This document shows, in pieces, positions 43,600 through 62,339 of a stretch of 64,000 nt of DNA. The notes below the pieces were generated by a model. The model ran no database searches, was not told where the DNA came from, and saw only the letters and a program-made list of their open reading frames with translations. The DNA lies in the NCBI GenBank assembly GCA_964017045.1, contig OZ024795.1, positions 50,826,850 through 50,890,849 of the forward strand, in the 5' to 3' direction. Position 1 is the first letter of the stretch; the number at the start of each line of letters is the position of its first letter. The position numbers were made by a program, and so were the translations under genes. This stretch comes from Omphiscola glabra (taxonomy: Eukaryota > Mollusca > Gastropoda > Lymnaeidae).

Positions 43600-44610
43600 T
43601 TTAGCAAGGAAAGCACCACTAGACAGTGACAATAAATAAAACATACCAAGGACAGCACCACTAGACAGTGAAAATAAATATAACATATCAAGGACAGCAC
43701 CACTAGACAGTGACAATAAATAAAACATACCAAGGACAGCACCACTAGACAGTGACAATAAATATAACATATCAAGGACAGCACCACTAGACAGTGACAA
43801 TAAATATAACATACCAAGGACAGCACCACTAGACAGTGACAATAAATATAACATATCAAGGACAGCACCACTAGACAGTGACAATAAATATAACATACCA
43901 AGGACAGCACCACTAGACAGTGACAATAAATATAACATAGCATTTTTATAGTAAGGATTGCACCACAAGACAGGGCACTATATATAACATACCCATATTT
44001 TAGTAGGAACTGCACCAAGACAGAGGCACAATATATAACATAACCATATTTTAGTAGGGACTGCACCACATACAGAGGCACTATATATAACGTAACCATA
44101 TTTTAGTAGGGACTGCACAAGACAGAGACACTATATATATATACTGTAACAATATTTTAGTTGGGACTGCACCACAAGACAGAGGCACTATATATAACAT
44201 AACCATATTTTAGCAGGGACTGCACCACAAGACAGAGGCACTATATATAACGTAAAAATATTTTAGTAGGGACTGCACCACAAGACAGAGGTACTATATA
44301 TAACGCAACATTGTTTTAGCCAGGACAGCACCACTAGACTGCGGAACTACATATAACGTAACATTTTTTTAGCAAGGACAGTACCACTAGACCGCGGAAT
44401 TACTTATAACATACCATTGTTTTAGCAAGGCCAGCACCACTAGACCGCTGCACTACATATATCGTACCATTGTTTTAGCATTGACAGTGTAACTACATAT
44501 ATAGTACCATTGTTTTAGCATTGCCAAACAGCCCTGGACAGCTCCGCTAGACAGCAGAACTACATATATCGTACCATTGTTTTAGCATTGCCAAACAGCG
44601 CACGACAGCT
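43600..44610. repeat. Minisatellite, 42-bp unit grading into diverged 55-70-bp units, abutting the E6 donor
   Basis: The left part is regular: AAGGACAGCACCACTAGACA plus GTGACAATAAATATAACATACC, 42 bp, about 8 copies. From 43950 rightward the units diverge (ACATATATCGTACCATTGTT, TTAGCATTGCCAAACAGC). The last diverged unit (CCAAACAGCGCACGACAGCT) runs directly into the E6 splice donor at 44613. Confidence 0.88.
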
Positions 44611-45339: not shown

Positions 45340-46100
45340 GTTGGTGTAATAAATCTGTGGTGTAATAAATCTGTGGTGTAATAAATCTGTGGTGTAATAA
45401 ATCTGTGGTGTAATAAATCTGTGGTGTAATAAATCTTTGGTGTAATAAATCTGTGGTGTAATAAATCTGTGGTGTAATAAATCTGTGGTGTAATAAATCT
45501 TTGGTGTAATAAATCTGTGGTGTAATAAATCTTTGGTGTAATAAATCTGTGGTGTAATAAATCTGTGGTGTAATAAATCTGTGGTGTAATAAATCTTTGG
45601 TGTAATAAATCTTTGGTGTAATAAATCTGTGGTGTAATAAATCTTTGGTGTAATAAATCTTTGGTGTAATAAATCTTTCGTGTAATTAATCTGTGGTGTA
45701 ATAAATCTGTGGTGTAATAAATCTGTGGTGTAATAAATCTGTGGTGTAATAAATCTGTGGTGTAATAAATCTGTGGTGTAATAAATCTGTGGTGTAATAA
45801 ATCTGTGGTGTAATAAATCTGTGGTGTAATAAATCTTTGGTGTAATAAATCTTTGGTGTAATAAATCTGTGGTGTAATAAATCTTTGGTGTAATAAATCT
45901 TTGGTGTAATAAATCTTTCGTGTAATTAATCTGTGGTGTAATAAATCTGTGGTGTAATAAATATGTGGTGTAATAAATCTGTGGTGTAATAAATCTGTGG
46001 TGTAATAAATCTGTGGTGTAATAAATCTGTGGTGTAATAAATCTGTGGTGTAATAAATCTGTGGTGTAATAAATCTTTGGTGTAATAAATCTGTGGTGTA
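45340..46100. repeat. Minisatellite, 16-bp unit, about 47 copies, with a 240-bp higher-order repeat
   Basis: GTGTAATAAATCTGTG with a TTTG variant. A rare double variant (ATCTTTCGTGTAATTAATCT) occurs at 45672 and 45912, exactly 240 bp or 15 units apart. Each unit carries AATAAA on the plus strand, antisense to RET. Confidence 0.95.
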
Positions 46101-46564
46101 AAAGCGGGTGGGTCATTGGAATATTAATATAATTCAGGGGCAAGAAAAAATGTGAGCCTTTTGGGGGGGGGGGGGGGGATTTTTATAAAGTGGTTTACTT
46201 GTATGCATGTTTTGTCAACTTTCAGCCCCACCCCCCATTGCTCGACAATAAATTTTATATCGGATTTTTTATGAAAAACTTTGTTTTTAGGGTTTAAAAA
46301 AAATTTCCATATAAGATTCTTGAGATGTTTTTGCAATAAATTGAATTGAAATAAAACACAGCCTTTTCCCGCTATCTTGAATTGTAAACACATTTTTTTT
46401 CTTTTATAAATCTTTAAATGAATCGAGTGACGGGAAATTTATGAAGCCCAAGTCTTAGAATTTAATTTCTTGATTTGAAAATCCCCTAAAGAGTTTCAGA
46501 GCTGGATTGAAAAAACAGACGTCATGCATTTATTTGTTAGCATGGCAAGTCAAACGATTAGGGG
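46101..46564 (-). other. RET intron E5-E6, spacer
   Basis: G run at about 46164-46178; otherwise AT-rich with nothing recognised. Confidence 0.4.
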
Positions 46565-47737: not shown

Positions 47738-48889
47738 CTGCAAAATACGGAACAAAAATTTGTCGGAAACACTTTAAACATTATTTTGGAAGAAAACCGA
47801 CGAAACAATTATTGTAAGGGAAACAATAACAATATTTTGGGAGAAAAGCGAAACAAATATTTGGCAGAAGCACTAAAAAATGATTTTGGAAAAAAGCAAA
47901 AAACGAATATTCGGGGCGAAAATCATTTTTAGTTGTTTGGACAACCGTATAAAAATGTACATCAGTTCCAGTGTGTACACGATTTTTATCTGTCTAGAAC
48001 AGCGATTGACCTGTCCACACTTTACCTACACGACTACGAAATAGTCGACTTCTTACTATCACACTTCAACTGACACGAAATGTGTTCTAAAAAATCCCCC
48101 GTCAAGATTATAGCCACCAAGAAATTAGACACGAAAGAGATTTTTTCTGATGTTTTTAACGCATACAGTACTTGAAAAAGTGCTAAAGAGAAAACTGGTA
48201 TGCTTTTGGCTCGTGCTCCGTGCATCCGGCCCTACCACACTAACGTTCGATACCAGCTCTGACCAACGTTTAACACCGTTTTTAAGACTGCAATTGTGTA
48301 CATGGCAGGACAAAGGGTTGCCGTATCATTGCAAGCGTTTATTGTCCAATATATATATCAACAAGTTGGAAAATCGCAGTCTCCCATAATTTTGCGCCCC
48401 CCCCCCAACTTTTAATTAACGAAAACTGAAATGTAAAGAGAATCGCATAAAGAGATAAATAAGCAATGTTAAGTACATGAAGGGGATCGAACATGGCACC
48501 AAACAAAACAAAAGAACAAAAACGAAGAGATTCCCGGGGGCGAACAGCCTTCACCGTCTCCTCTCCCTACTCCCGTGGATGGAAGGTGGATGGAAGGTGG
48601 ATGATAATATCTTATTTATAAAATATTATATCGATGTGACATGGCTGCGAGGTACTGGTTGGAATGGATTGCAAAAAGGAGTCACTTTCTGGGGGCAAAA
48701 GTGTGGGAACTCATTCAAGAAGAGACCAACCCCCCTCCTCCAATTAAATATGTACAGGAACGACGTTCCAATGCGTCCCCGTAGGACTTGAGCATTGCTT
48801 TAAAAACCACAAACTGGTTTAAAACAGGATTTCTTTTAACATCGCCTTGCTAAAAAAATAAACAGTATTAACATCCTTACTTATTTCCC
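47738..48889 (-). other. RET intron E4-E5, unique part
   Basis: About 1.15 kb with A-rich diverged repeats next to the E5 acceptor (GGAAGAAAA-type, 47770-47930) and otherwise nothing recognised. Confidence 0.5.
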
Positions 48890-49088
48890 GAATCCCATCG
48901 ACGGCCGAATCAAACTGACGGCCGAATCCCACCGACTGCCGAACCTCACCGACGGCCAAATCCCTCCGACGGCCGAATCCCACCTACGGCCGAATACCAC
49001 CGACGACCGAATCAAACCGACGACCGAATCCCACCGAAGGCCGAATCCCAGTGACGACCGTATCCCACTGACGACTGAATTCCACTGA
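48890..49088. repeat. CpG-rich minisatellite, 17-18-bp unit, 11 copies
   Basis: AATCCCACCGACGGCCG with AAACCGACGACCG and similar variants. On the sense strand it begins about 15 bases after the E4 donor. Two or three CpGs per unit. Confidence 0.92.
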
Positions 49089-49102
49089 CGGGAGTTTCTT
49101 AC

Positions 49103-54132: not shown

Positions 54133-54270
54133 CTCGGAGGTCACTCGGAAACCCAGGCTCCGGTTCACATCTGCATTGTTTTTCTTGCCTGTCGCACCAG
54201 CACGGCCCCTTCGCCCTGTAGATGCCACGTTGACTGTTCTTTTTCCTGAACGCCTCACCTCCTATTTTTT
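54133..54270 (-). CDS. RET: RET exon E3: second part of the cysteine-rich domain
   Basis: 138 nt, phase 1 on both sides. The acceptor is TAATTTCTCTCAG and the donor CGAG|GTAAGC. It reads KIGGEAFRKKNSQRGIYRAK and then GPCWCDRQEKQCRCEPEPG and FPSDLR. The CWC...CRC pair matches human CNC...CFC, that is C609, C611, C618 and C620, which form the membrane-proximal disulphides and are mutated in MEN2. There is no long open frame through it, so it is recognised by homology and splice signals. Confidence 0.93.
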
Positions 54271-54404
54271 CTGAGAGAAATTAGACAACCCTTGAAAGAA
54301 AAGTTTCTGCTCAATAGGTGGACCGGAAGTGGGTCAATTAGCCGTCCCAAGATTTTGAGCCAAAATCACAAAGGCGAAGTTAATATAAAGGATTTTTAAA
54401 AAAT

Positions 54405-57400
54405 CAATAAACAAACATGGAGAACATGAAAAAATGAATGACATGACACAATGAATGGCACAAAACAATGAATGAAATGAAACAATGAATGACATGAAAC
54501 AATGAATGACATGAAACAATGAATGACATGAAACAATGAATGACATGACACAATGAATGACATAAAACAATTAATGGCATGAAACAATGAATGACATGAC
54601 ACAATTAATGGCATGAAACAATGAATGACATGACACAATGAATGACATGACACAATGAATGACATAAAACAATTAATGGCATGAAACAATGAATGACATG
54701 AAACAATGAATGACATGACACAATGAATGGCATGAAACAATGAATGACATAAAACAATGAATGACATGAAACAATGAATGACATGACACAATGAATGACA
54801 TAAAACAATGAATGACATGAAACAATGAATGACATGACACAATGAATGACATGAAACAATGAATGACACGAAACAATGAATGACATGAAACAATGAATGA
54901 CATGACACAATGAATGACATAAAACAATGAATGACATGAAACAATGAATGACACGAAACAATGAATGACATGAAACAATGAATGGCATGAAACAATGAAT
55001 GACATGAAACAATGAATGACATGACACAATGAATGACATAAAACAATTAATGGCATGAAACAATGAATGACATGAAACAATGAATGACATGACACAATGA
55101 ATGACATGACACAATGAATGACACGAAACAATGAATGACACGAAACAATGAATGACATGAAACAATGAATGACATGACACAATGAATGACATAAAACAAT
55201 GAATGACATGAAACAATGAATGACATGAAACAATGAATGACATGAAACAATGAATGACACGAAACAATGAATGACATGAAACAATGAATGACATGACACA
55301 ATGAATGACATAAAACAATTAATGGCATGAAACAATGAATGACATGAAACAATGAATGACATGACACAATGAATGACATGACACAATGAATGACACGAAA
55401 CAATGAATGACATGAAACAATGAATGACATTACACAATGAATGACATGAAACAATGAATGACATGAAACAATGAATGACATGAAACAATGAATGACATGA
55501 CACAATGAATGACATGACACAATGAATGACACGAAACAATGAATGACATGAAACAATGAATGACATGACACAATGAATGACACGAAACAATGAATGACAT
55601 GAAACAATGAATGACATGAAACAATGAATGACATAAAACAATGAATGACACGAAACAATTAATGACATTACACAATGAATGACATGAAACAATGAATGAC
55701 ATAAAACAATGAATGACACGAAACAATGAATGACATTACACAATGAATGACATAAAACAATGAATGACATGACACAATGAATGACATAAAACAATTAATG
55801 GCATGAAACAATGAATGACATGAAACAATGAATGACATGACACAATGAATGACATGACACAATGAATGACATAAAACAATTAATGGCATGAATTAATGAA
55901 TGACATGACACAATGAATGACATGAAACAATGAATGACATAAAACAATGAATGACATGACACAATGAATGACATGAAACAATGAATGACATGAAAGAATG
56001 AATGACATGAAACCATGAATGACATGAAACAATGAATGACATGAAACAATTAATGGCATGAAACAATGAATGGCATGAAACAATGAATGACATGACACAA
56101 TGAATGACATGACACAATGAATGACACGAAACAATGAATGACACGAAACAATGAATGACACGAAACAATGAATGACATGAAACAATGAATGACATGACAC
56201 AATGAATGACATAAAACAATTAATGGCATGAAACAATGAATGACATGAAACAATGAATTACGTGAAACAATGAATGACACGAAACAATGAATGACATGAA
56301 ACAATGAATGACACGAAACAATGAATGACATGAAACAATGAATGACATGACACAATGAATGACATAAAACAATGAATGACATGAAACAATGAATGACATG
56401 AAACAATGAATGACATGAAACAATGAATGACACGAAACAATGAATGACATGAAACAATGAATGACATGACACAATGAATGACATAAAACAATTAATGGCA
56501 TGAAACAATGAATGACATGAAACAATGAATGACATGACACAATGAATGACATGACACAATGAATGACACGACACAATGAATGACATGACACAATGAATGA
56601 CATAAAACAATGAATGACATGAAACAATGAATGACATTACACAATGAATGACATAAAACAATGAATGACATTACACAATGAATGACACGAAACAATTAAT
56701 GGCATGACACAATGAATGACATGACACAATGAATGACATGAAACAATTAATGGCATGAAACAATGAATGACATGAAACAATGAATGACATGACACAATGA
56801 ATGACATGACACAATGAATGACACGAAACAATGAATGACACGAAACAATGAATGACACGAAACAATGAATGACATGAAACAATGAATGACATGACACAAT
56901 GAATGACATAAAACAATTAATGGCATGAAACAATGAATGACATGAAACAATGAATGACATGACACAATGAATGACATAAAACAATTAATGGCATGAAACA
57001 ATGAATGACATGAAACAATGAATGACATGACACAATGAATGACATGACACAATGAATGACATGACACAATGAATGACATAAAACAATTAATGGCATGAAA
57101 CAATGAATGACATGACACAATGAATGACATAAAACAATTAATGACATGAAACAATGAATGACATGAAACAATGAATGACATGAAACAATGAATGGCATAA
57201 AACAATGAATGACCTGACACAATGAATGACATGAAACAATGAATGACATGGAACAATGAATGACATGAAACTATGAATGACTGAAACAATGAATGAATGA
57301 AACAATGAATGACATGAAACAATGAATGACATGAAACAATGAATGACATGAAACAATGGATGACATGAAACTATGAATGACATGAAACAGTGAATGACAT

Positions 57401-57470
57401 GAAACAGTGAATGACATGAATTAATGAATGACATGAAACCATGAATGACATGACACAATGAATGACATGG
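54405..57470. repeat. Very large minisatellite, 17-bp unit, about 180 copies
   Basis: AATGAATGACATGAAAC with the variants CATGACAC, CATAAAAC, CACGAAAC, CATTACAC and AATTAATGGCATG in recurring orders, implying many block duplications. It fills 3.1 kb of the E2-E3 intron and ends about 135 bp before the E3 acceptor. Because three units make 51 bp, all minus-strand frames stay open as low-complexity SLFHVIHCFMS-like strings; these are artefacts. Confidence 0.97.
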
Positions 57471-57599
57471 TCTATGGTAAGTAGGTTAAAACACAGGAAA
57501 CGATGTCAGCACACTTTGGTGGTAAGCTTAATTTACACATATAATAAGACTTGAGCATCTATCACACTCTCAGGAATGGCTTGTTGAATACGCAGGTCC

Positions 57600-58050
57600 T
57601 TGGGAAAAAATATGTAGCTTCTGGCAAGTACAGCTTAACACAATAGTTCTAGCAGGTACAGCTTAACACAATAGGTCTAGCAAAGACAACTTAACACAAA
57701 AGTTCAAGCAAGGACAACTTCTCACAAAAGTTTTGACAAGTACAATACGTCTCATTAGTTCTGGCAAGTACAGCTTGTCCAAAAGTTCTGGCAAGTACAG
57801 CTGGTCCAAAAATTCTGGCAAGTACAGCTTGTCCAAAAGTTCTGGCAAGTACAGCTTGTCCAAAAGTTCTGGCAAGTACAGCTGGTCCAAAAGTTCTGGC
57901 AAGTACAGCTTGTCCAAAAGTTCTGGCAAGTACAGCTTGTCCAAAAGTTCTGGCAAGTACAGCTTGTCCAAAAGTTCTGGCAAGTACAGCTGGTCCAAAA
58001 ATTCTGGCAAGTACAGCTTGTCCAAAAGTTCTGGCAAGTACAGCTCATCA
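57600..58050. repeat. Minisatellite, 27-bp unit, about 15 copies
   Basis: TTCTGGCAAGTACAGCTTGT plus CCAAAAG; the left end has a diverged form (CTAGCAGGTACAGCTTAACACAATAG). Confidence 0.94.
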
Positions 58051-58754
58051 TAACAGTGATTGTAGTACACATGAAGACAATAAAATGGGTTTTCATAAAA
58101 TGAAGGCTTTCCAAGTTCTTCCTACTTGACAACACTGAACAAAGACAACCCGTTATTTTGACAGTGTGGTACAATACTTCCTGGGACGATTTGATTGGCC
58201 AATCGGAAAATTTTAATTAAAGGATTACCCAACTGTAACAGCTAAAAAGAATTGGATTTAGAATATATCTATGCCATTGTGTATACAGCGCAATGAGTAA
58301 CTACAAGAGCACACATACACACAAAACAAATCGATCCTGCCACTCAAAGTGTTGAAATAGTCTGCGCTAATAATTAGCGCACCCAGCCAACTTGAGCCTG
58401 CCGCTATGAGAATTGCCACTACCTCCGGCCACTACAGGAATTGCCACCACCTCCGGCAGCACGTTTCAAATTAATTGTGGCCATTCTTTCTCTCATCTTA
58501 AGCGTGTGTAGGTTTGTTAGCGCTGTTGGTTATTTCAGACAAACGATGGATTTATTTCAATTGCGGCTTTTTTGTTGTTTCTCCCATCTATAAAAAAAAC
58601 ACCGTTTTATCCATCGTACGATAGCCTGTCCTTCTCGTGTAGTGGTCGAGGCGGCAGATTAAATGGCTTTCGGCTGCAGGCCCAGAAGCCAAACCCTCGC
58701 TAATTAAAAATGAGTCATAGATTATTTTAAAAAAAAAAATCAAACACTCTATTT
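58051..58754 (-). other. RET intron E2-E3, unique stretch between arrays
   Basis: Short local duplication (CACTAC(C)TCCGGC) at 58418-58462. No exon, RNA gene or transposon recognised. Confidence 0.45.
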
Positions 58755-60050
58755 CTGTAAGAGCCCCAAGATTTTATTTTTGTGTAAGAGCCCCAAGATT
58801 TTATTTTTGTGTAAGAGCCCCAAGATTTTATTTTTGTGTAAGAGCCCCAAGATTTTATTTTTGTGTAAGAGCCCCAAGATTTTATTTTTGTGTAAGAGCC
58901 CCAAGATTTTATTTTTGTGTAAGAGCCCCAAGATTTTATTTTTGTGTAAGAGCCCCAAGATTTTATTTTTGTGTAAGAGCCCCAAGATTTTATTTTTGTG
59001 TAAGAGCCCCAAAATTTTATTTTTGTGTAAGAGCCCCAAGATTTTATTTTTGTGTAAGAGCCCCAAGATTTTATTTTTGTTTAAGAGCCCCAAGATTTTA
59101 TTTTTGTGTAAGAGCCCCAAGATTTTATTTTTGTGTAAGAGCCCCAAGATTTTATTTTTGTGTAAGAGCCCCAAGATTTTATTTTTGTGTAAGAGCCCCA
59201 AGATTTTATTTTTGTGTAAGAGCCCCAAGATTTTATTTTTCTGTAAGAGCCCCGAGATTTTATTTTTCTGTAAGAGCCCCAAGATTTTATTTTTCTGTAA
59301 GAGCCCCAAGATTTTATTTTTCTGTAAGAGCCCCAAGATTTTATTTTTGTGTAAGAGCCCCAAGATTTTATTTTTGTGTAAGAGCCCCAAGATTTTATTT
59401 TTCTGTAAGAGCCCCAAGATTTTATTTTTCTGTAAGAGCCCCGAGATTTTATTTTTCTGTAAGAGCCCCAAGATTTTATTTTTCTGTAAGAGCCCCAAGA
59501 TTTTATTTTTCTGTAAGAGCCCCGAGATTTTATTTTTCTGTAAGAGCCCCAAGATTTTATTTTTCTGTAAGAGCCCCGAGATTTTATTTTTCTGTAAGAG
59601 CCCCAAGATTTTATTTTTCTGTAAGAGCCCCAAGATTTTATTTTTCTGTAAGAGCCCCAAGATTTTATTTTTCTGTAAGAGCCCCAAGATTTTATTTTTC
59701 TGTAAGAGCCCCAAGATTTTATTTTTAGTCTAAGAGCCCCAAGATTTTATTTTTGTGTAAGAGCCCCGAGATTTTATTTTTCTGTAAGAGCCCCAAGATT
59801 TTATTTTTAGTCTAAGAGCCCGAAGATTTTATTTTTGTGTAAGAGCCCCGAGATTTTATTTTTCTGTAAGAGCCCCCAAGATTTTATTTTTTCTATAAGA
59901 GCCCCAAGATTTTATTTTTCTGTAAGAGCCCCAAGAATTTATTTTTCAGTAAGAGCCCCAAGAATTTCTTTTCTGTAAGAGCCCCAAGAATTTCTTTTTC
60001 TGTAAGAGCCACAAGAATTTATTTTTCTGTAAGTGCCCAAAGATTTTATT
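58755..60050 (-). repeat. Minisatellite, 27-bp unit, about 48 copies, with sense AATAAA in nearly every unit
   Basis: In the RET sense direction the unit reads GGGGCTCTTACAGAAAAATA plus AAATCTT. Every regular unit has AATAAA followed by a G/T-rich TCTTGGGGCTCTT. In the part transcribed first (about 59230-60000) most units read TTACAG, like a 3' splice site; in the part transcribed later (58755-59220) they read TTACAC. The right end (59720-60050) is diverged. Low-complexity open frames on both strands are artefacts of the 27-bp period. Confidence 0.95.
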
Positions 60051-60272
60051 TTTCCTCACTGTGGGCAACATTTTTTTGTTTTATGGAATAAAGAATACAA
60101 AAACATTTTAGAAAAAAGTTTTGTTCGATTTAAATTATTATATATTTTATTTTTTGTTAAGGGTGTGTTTGATCCCGTAATCAAGCATTTAACAAGCATC
60201 TGTTTTAATTCCTCGCACAAGCATTGACAACATGCTAACGTATTTTGCCTCCCAGTGCAGTGTTACCTAGAG

Positions 60273-60426
60273 CAGCGGTTCTTAACCTGTGGGGCCTAAG
60301 ACCACCTGAAAACATATATACTCTACAGTTATGAAGCAGAAAGTAAATAATTATGTGGCTGGGGGTCGTCACAAAATGAGAAACTGTATTAAAGGGTCCT
60401 TTCATCAGGAAGGTTGAAAACCACTG
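60273..60426. mobile_element. SPIN-like hAT nonautonomous element
   Basis: It starts CAGCGGTTCTTAACCTGTGG and ends GAAGGTTGAAAACCACTG, with ACAGTTATGAAGCAGAAAGT, TGGGGGTCGTCACAA and TGTATTAAAGGGTC inside. The flanks ACCTAGAG and CCTTAGAG agree at 6 of 8 positions with a TAGAG core. 154 bp. It is a second copy, diverged from the one at 53521. Confidence 0.87.
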
Positions 60427-60867
60427 CCTTAGAGGGACGTCATTAGGGTAGGGCAGGATGGGGCATTTCCCCTCCCCCCTCCACGAATTTGCAGTTTTTG
60501 TTTAAATTGCTATGTACTGTGGTGCCTCCAGTAATAAACAACTTTACAGGCGGACCACGTTTTGGTTTTGCGCCCCACCCCCCGAAATGAAATGACGCCC
60601 CTGGTTACGAACCGTCATATGGTTTGCAAATTAAACAACCGGATATCATTCTTTAGAAGAAAGTCAGAACGTACTCAGCCCTTTTGCCAAATAAGGGAGG
60701 GGTTGGTGGGGTAGTGCGGGGAGAGAGACGGTGGAACGCTCTTGCTCTATGCTGTAACATAATTAGGTCAACACACAGGCTATAATAACAAAAATGATAG
60801 CAGCTATTCTTAAGACACATTCTTGTACTAGGCCATAACCTCGCTTTTCATGGTTAAACTTCGTAAG
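60427..60867 (-). other. RET intron E2-E3, unique stretch
   Basis: CpG-poor AT-rich DNA with C runs at 60471 and 60580. Nothing recognised. Confidence 0.4.
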
Positions 60868-61290
60868 TGATACAGTCTTTGTGAAACCTCGGCCGAGGTA
60901 CAATCGTTGTTAAATCTCAACTGTGGAACAATCTTTGTTAAATCTCACCTGTGGTACAATCTTTGTTAAATCTCACCTGTGGTACAATCTTTGTTAAATA
61001 TCACCCGTGGAACAATCTTTGTTAAATCTCACCTATGGAACAATCTTTGTTAAATCTCACCTGTGGAACAATATTTGTTAAATCTTACCTGTGTTACAAT
61101 CTTTGTTAAATCTCACCTGTGGAACAATCTTTGTTAAATCTCACCTGTGGTACAATCTTTGTTAAACCTCACCTGTGGAACAATCTTTGTTAAGCCTCAC
61201 CTGTGGTCAATCTTTGTTAAATCTCACCTGTGGTACAATCTTTGTTAAACCTCACCTGTGGTACAATCTTTGTTAAACCTCACCTGTGGT
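60868..61290 (-). repeat. 28-bp minisatellite of 5' splice sites, about 15 units including the authentic E2 donor
   Basis: In the RET sense direction each unit is CAGGTGAGATTTAACAAAGA plus TTGTACCA. The first unit overlaps the end of E2 (TGTACCACAG|GTGAGG), so the real donor is part of the array. The word CAG|GTGAG occurs ten times including the authentic site, and one unit has CAG|GTAAG. The others are mutated (CAGTTGAG, CGGGTGAT, TAGGTGAG). The unit length is not divisible by three, and the first in-frame TAA comes ten bases into the intron. Confidence 0.95.
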
Positions 61291-61496
61291 ACAGTCTTGC
61301 GGGCAGATGAAAAAGTCCATCATCTCCAGGTCGCTGCAGAAACCATCTGGACACGTGGTCAGTTCGGGCGAGCACGTGGTGTAGTTGACAGACAATGTCG
61401 GGTCACCCTCTCGCCACTTGCACTCGCCATTGTCGGCACCCAGGCCACAGGACGCATTGCAAGATTTCTTCGTGTTGTGAATTGCGCAGCCTTCCG
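61284..61496 (-). CDS. RET: RET exon E2: first part of the cysteine-rich domain
   Basis: 213 nt, phase 1 at both ends. The acceptor is CAAATTTCTGTACTTCAG and the donor CAG|GTGAGG. After EGCAIHNTKKSCNASCGLGA it has NGECKWREGD, VNYTTCSPELTTCPDGFC and ends FFICPQDCTT. Human RET reads GRCEWRQGD, NFSTCSPSTKTCPDGHC and INICPQDC at these points. Nine cysteines and two N-glycosylation sequons (NAS, NYT) are visible. This domain binds the GFRalpha-ligand complex side in vertebrates; the ligand in molluscs is not shown here. Confidence 0.96.
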
Positions 61497-61772
61497 CTGA
61501 AGTACAGAAATTTGGCAATACACTCACAGCAGCATTTGATGACGTCATACCATTTTGCCAACATCAACATAAAAATCTCAATTCTCTTTACAAGAAAACA
61601 TGTTTATTTGTTTCGTTTTAAATGTTGTAATCTACCCCAACTTTTTATTTATTTTGTGTGTTTTTTTTTTGGTTCCGGAGTGAGAAAACACTATTTACGA
61701 CTCTTGCGACTCCACAAGTTTCTCAAAAAATATATTTTTTTAAGTACCTCTTTTTATATTAGATTTAATATA

Positions 61773-62125
61773 CGGAAAATATACGGACAAACAAAGTATG
61801 AATATGGATGGAGAATACGAACCAACCAAGAATTGTATTGACTACAACAGGATCCCACGCTAGTAGCAGAAATAAATAAAGGGCAGGCTAAGATGGACGG
61901 GACACTTAGAAAGAATGCCAAATGACAAAGGAGTGAAGGGGTGCACCACCAAAACCCAAGAGGAACACGGCTCAGAAGCAGACATAGGCTTAGATGGATG
62001 GTCGATGTGGAGAGGGATCTACATCAGCTGCGAATCCAAGCATGGAAAAGCACTGCTTCATTCAGGTCTCAGTGGAAGGAAGTGGTGAGGCAGGCCAAGG
62101 CCTTCCATGGACTGCAGCGTCACAG
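61773..62125 (+). mobile_element. LINE ORF2 C-terminal fragment, antisense to RET
   Basis: On the plus strand the frames give KYEYGWRIRTNQELY, then MDGTLRKNAK, then SRHRLRWMVDVERDLHQLRI and WKEVVRQAKAFHGL. These are the typical end of LINE reverse-transcriptase proteins (GEWRIRSNxEL, GRPRLRWxDxVExDL, AKALHGL). Stops and frameshifts break it. It sits in the intron between E1 and E2. Confidence 0.8.
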
Positions 62126-62339
62126 TGATGGATGGAAGAATTGGAGACCATCGCTGAGCACCGATTCAGCTGGCGAACACCAGTGTATGAAGGAGTCAAA
62201 CAGGCAGAAAAGGCGAAAAATGAAACCCTTGCAACAAAAAGAGCATTAGATATATATCTTCTTTTTCTTCTTTTGTATCTTAAGGGCCCAAGATCAATGT
62301 ATTTATCATTTTGGCTAATATTTATTTAGAGGTGATTAG

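Follow-up and report, generated by a model that had tools for sequence, protein, structure and literature searches.

The 3' end of an exon of the receptor gene RET was analysed in a 64,000-nucleotide stretch of Omphiscola glabra DNA (contig OZ024795.1), which is called the window and in whose coordinates all positions are given. This exon end and its 5' splice site (donor) are the first unit of a minisatellite with a 28-bp repeat, which runs on into the following intron and repeats the donor many times. The array is most probably a passive and unstable duplication of the exon boundary, in which the exon-proximal donor would be used and the rare mis-spliced mRNA decayed. The features that carry this reading are as follows, with a slash placed at the splice junction.

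61284 to 61496, minus strand: RET exon, called E2, coding for the initial two thirds of the cysteine-rich domain (Pfam RET_CRD and PDB RET matches)
60867 to 61298, minus strand: 28-bp minisatellite of 15.5 copies (Tandem Repeats Finder, 90% matches), with the gene-strand unit AAAGATTGTACCACAG/GTGAGATTTAAC
61284 to 61298, minus strand: last 15 exon bases, placed in the first repeat unit by the Tandem Repeats Finder boundary and including the D-C codons of CPQDC
61279 to 61286, minus strand: authentic donor CAG/GTGAG of the first unit, with a U1 duplex predicted at -11.6 kcal/mol
60944 to 61258, minus strand: ten more CAG/GTRAG (nine GTGAG and one GTAAG), one TAG/GTGAG and one CGG/GTGAT

The minus strand of the array contained ten copies of CAGGTGAG, the authentic donor counted, and one of CAGGTAAG, over a span of 343 bp (61286-60944). 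The initial annotation had counted ten CAG/GTGAG and one CAG/GTAAG, which was reproduced, but over about 400 bp, which is too long. It had also named the exon as RET and taken the authentic exon end and donor as the first unit of the minisatellite; the domain and structure matches bear out the former, and the extension of the array by 15 bases into the exon the latter. The spacing between the at least 11 near-identical donors was 27-84 nt. In the 16 aligned units the donor position was occupied by CAG/GTRAG in 11, TAG/GTGAG in one and CGG/GTGAT in one, while three had no GT. The whole window held 15 CAGGTRAG on both strands (11 in the array and 4 elsewhere), compared to a mean of 3.08 and a maximum of 7 in 100 dinucleotide shuffles. 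The last 16 exon bases matched the unit consensus at 14/16 positions. Units 2-14 closely resembled one another; 7 and 8 differences were counted in the two units at the distal edge.

The gene context of the array consists of the following features.

63130 to 63006, 61496 to 61284, 54270 to 54133, 49404 to 49103, 47737 to 47590 and 44721 to 44614, minus strand: six RET exons
54133 to 54270, minus strand: RET exon E3, completing the cysteine-rich domain once joined to E2
54271 to 61283, minus strand: E2-E3 intron of 7013 nt, 74% tandem repeats

E2 matched Pfam RET_CRD PF22540 with E=1.8e-23 and the PDB RET chains with a best E=4.1e-18, four distinct sequences being found up to E=1. It is bounded by the acceptor CTTCAG/CG and the donor CCACAG/GTGAGG, with 61284 as its final base and 61283 as the first base of a phase 1 intron. 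The six joined exons gave a single open frame that holds a transmembrane-like stretch and the start of a kinase, with AG acceptors and GT donors throughout and phases of 1, 1, 1, 0, 1 and 1 for the following introns. With E2 spliced at the first donor to E3, the RET_CRD score was 107.4 bits, up from 83.1, and profile positions 2-103 of 103 were covered; the joined product aligned with PDB RET through CPQDC into the next exon, which marks the exon-proximal donor, as judged from the sequence, as the ancestral junction. A second in-phase candidate for the E3 acceptor lies 9 nt downstream, the upstream one being marginally better (107.4 vs 104.1 bits).

The direction of growth was considered from the repeated exon bases. 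CPQDC is conserved in the PDB RET sequences and its D-C codons fall inside the repeat; since the repeated bases encode these conserved residues, growth from exon to array appears likelier than the reverse, and the exon end most likely seeded the array, in line with the earlier claim that it grew from the real RET donor. The reverse history, with the intronic repeat first and the exon end derived from it, for example by slippage or gene conversion, is very improbable: the last exon codons (T, T) do differ from the aligned PDB RET residues, as it might have them, whereas the D-C codons in the repeat are conserved and the alignment crosses the junction without length change over CPQDC and the residues that follow. 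Among the 16-mers outside the array, on both strands, the best matches to the exonic half were two with 13 identical positions, none reaching 14. The C of GACTGT, which the exon unit shares with the degenerate unit at the distal edge, was considered as a sign of exon origin and set aside as too weak (one base, against 8 differences). At the other 11 RET exon edges no copy of the straddling 28-mers with at least 20/28 matches lay within 3 kb, the acceptor coordinates of E2, E3, E4 and E6 being off by 15, 4, 1 and 2 nt in this comparison, and the duplication would therefore be peculiar to the E2 donor edge.

The array would have started with a tandem duplication of 28 bp across the 3' end of the RET exon, taking in about 15 exon and about 13 intron bases, and would have expanded into the intron by unequal exchange or slippage, each unit bringing a donor copy. 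The first donor would be chosen as the one met first in transcription and/or as the one fitting the defined exon, while the remaining copies would be bystanders drifting neutrally. The copy number is probably variable between alleles, and occasional use of a copy would give early-stop mRNAs that are then decayed.

The strength of the donors was compared by predicted U1 duplex energy. Three copies equalled the authentic donor at -11.6 kcal/mol and seven more gave -11.0 or -11.1, while the degraded TAG/GTGAG and CGG/GTGAT gave -9.5 and -7.5. Among the six RET donors of the window, that of E2 had the lowest energy, the other five ranging from -5.1 to -9.6. GT sites outside the array reached -11.6 in 0/542 cases in the intron and in 1/3846 on the whole minus strand. 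Within this simple duplex model the near-equal competitors of the first donor are real, as had been proposed.

The consequence of using a downstream copy is set by one feature.

61273 to 61275, minus strand: first in-frame stop TAA on use of a downstream copy or on intron retention (open reading frame 61273-61563)

Use of any of the 12 downstream GT copies tested, like full retention of the intron, gave a product ending in CPQDCTTGEV followed by the stop, in accordance with the prediction that downstream copies keep an in-frame TAA and end the protein in the cysteine-rich domain. If the nearest copy is used, 17 nt separate the stop from the E2-E3 junction downstream. The truncated mRNAs carry it at least 155 nt before the E3-E4 junction (155 nt for the nearest copy). 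By the usual rule a stop more than 50-55 nt before a later junction marks an mRNA for decay, and the truncated mRNAs should therefore be decay targets.

The variation among the copies was examined for selection on the donors. In units 2-14, non-consensus bases made up 5/104 of the donor core (-3 to +5, with +6 left out) and 13/260 of the rest (Fisher p=1.0), the count leaving out the authentic first unit and both degenerate edge units. At the low power of this comparison the decoy donors were neither kept nor purged relative to the rest of the unit, so that selection on decoys was rejected, and the conservation of donor positions above the rest of the unit that a functional decoy or governor would call for was not seen. 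The initial annotation had suggested that the array might act as a U1 buffer, a splicing governor or a source of truncated receptor. These roles found no support, as the donors are not extra conserved and the truncated mRNAs are expected to decay; the published precedents, as far as their excerpted text describes them, also splice normally despite the copies.

These precedents are the variable repeats of human factor VII (F7) and the amphioxus structures called mirages, and the RET array, by its sequence, has the architecture published for them, both matching its defining anatomy. In F7 intron 7, according to the excerpted text of PMC6627357, in which Borensztajn et al. 2006 (PLoS Genet) is cited as the primary work, a variable number of 37-bp repeats is present and normally only the most upstream donor is used, which is ascribed to oriented scanning; weakening of the first donor turns on a downstream intronic donor. 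The RET array likewise has its real donor in the first, exon-proximal unit of highly similar repeats, followed by donors of comparable strength by predicted U1 duplex, whereas the unit is 28 bp instead of 37 bp and the gene and lineage are others. Copy-number variation and RNA evidence are reported for F7, while the RET array is known from the sequence of one assembly.

Amphioxus mirages are described in the Adh3, globin, TnC and PGBD5 genes in the excerpts of PMC3087553 and PMC3902484. The Adh3 data and globin reverse transcription polymerase chain reaction suggest that mirages do not interfere with regular splicing (PMC3087553), which was likewise undisturbed for the Adh and TnC mirages (PMC3902484). 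The RET repeat unit, like a mirage, combines exonic and intronic sequence from a genuine splice junction, and many, not all, of its copies keep the AG/GT signals. It also has a homogenised core with diverged distal edge units, similar to the diverged cluster edges that the excerpt of PMC3087553 describes. The mirage units differ in size, being 10-72 bp in Adh3 and 150-160 bp in the globins, and they occur at either exon edge; somatic instability is reported for the Adh3 mirage, whereas the RET array has been seen in one assembly. A related process is the gain of introns through tandemly duplicated segments that bear AGGT (Rogers 1989, cited in the excerpt of PMC3087553). Tandem copies of an AG/GT-bearing segment are common to both, but those of RET are within an intron that was already there, with no new one evident. 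A potato case of such intron gain is reportedly described in PMC4974935. No paper on this array in snails turned up in the library searched, the search not being aimed at RET.

The repeat load of the region puts the array in perspective. Minisatellites (period of at least 10, at least 3 copies) form 55 merged loci that take up 43.2% of the window, so an exon edge within some array is expected, and circular shifts of the window arrays placed at least one of the 12 RET exon edges inside an array in 99.8% of cases, with a mean of 5.2 edges. The real number is 1/12, and one or fewer arises in 2.0% of the shifts; the window arrays rather avoid exons. The unusual part is that the unit contains the junction. 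The periods of the window minisatellites are mostly 14-60 bp, with up to about 179 copies (54424-57469, 17 bp). A 17-bp array at 48888-49091 starts 12 nt beyond the RET E4 donor (49103), which it leaves out.

Certain observations weigh against a passive duplication read past by the splicing machinery. Three copies equal the authentic donor in U1 energy, and its mean unpaired probability was the lowest of 13 (0.26 vs 0.32-0.45 for the 12 copies) in a single-sequence fold of a 797-nt stretch. The neutral test covers only 13 related units and weak selection would escape it. The donor choice in this taxon could also differ from that of human and amphioxus. Masking of the decoys by RNA structure was rejected, as the authentic donor is the least accessible in the fold and structure does not explain why the first donor would be chosen. 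Leaky or regulated donor choice, in which downstream copies tune the RET level through mRNA decay or make a soluble receptor truncated in the cysteine-rich domain, is an unlikely but arguable reading: the ten further CAG/GTRAG copies have duplex energies of -11.0 to -11.6 vs -11.6, the weakened first donor of human F7 gives way to a downstream intronic one (PMC6627357, excerpt), and in C. elegans, by the excerpted text of PMC4039745, an intronic minisatellite is enriched close to regions of alternative splicing. Set against it are the lack of excess conservation in the copied donors, a product that ends within the cysteine-rich domain with its stop at least 155 nt before the E3-E4 junction, and the use of the first donor in the precedents. 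A collapsed or misassembled array is hardly credible; tandem arrays are prone to such artefacts, but here the units are set apart by scattered substitutions, a single-base deletion and degenerate units at the distal edge, and the exon keeps its reading frame. The copy number of the array could still be wrong.

A further reading brings in a second array of the same intron.

58752 to 60054, minus strand: 27-bp array of 48.1 copies, whose gene strand bears 46 AATAAA and 22 acceptor-like CTCTTACAG

U1 suppresses intronic cleavage, and the donor array might load U1 and guard the nascent RNA from premature cleavage at this AATAAA array about 1.1 kb downstream (telescripting), which is considered a very slight chance. 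Of the 48 gene-strand AATAAA in the E2-E3 intron, 46 are in the 27-bp array and 2 elsewhere, the first being 1133 nt past the authentic donor, and 0/542 intronic GT sites outside the donor array reach the U1 energy of that donor; these points favour a U1 shield. The AATAAA arrays are, however, not special, as AATAAA recurs in most units of three arrays, of which two are on the opposite strand, and the donors are not conserved above background. It is similarly improbable that the two opposed arrays, with ten-plus U1 sites and 46 poly(A) hexamers about 1.1 kb on, set by their relative copy numbers how much full-length RET mRNA escapes cleavage; if this were true, minisatellite length would be a tunable dial on a growth-factor receptor. 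On the plus strand, opposite to RET, two arrays at 45342-46101 and 43605-43939 carry AATAAA in about every unit.

Two other elements lie nearby. The ends CAGCGGTTCTTAACCTGTGG and GGTTGAAAACCACTGCC of about 60272-60430 resemble those of a hAT-type short transposon, which we take to be similar to the SPIN/URR1 elements. An open stretch on the plus strand at about 61876-62250, LERMPNDKGVKGCTTKTQEE, presumably resembles the 3' end of a long interspersed nuclear element (LINE) reverse transcriptase.

The RET array is a natural competition experiment, with at least 11 near-identical donors in one intron, a common truncating outcome and a lineage beyond human and amphioxus. By this example, minisatellites at exon boundaries would seem to arise in any genome where minisatellites abound, and the donor choice made here bears on first-come scanning as against exon definition among equal donors.
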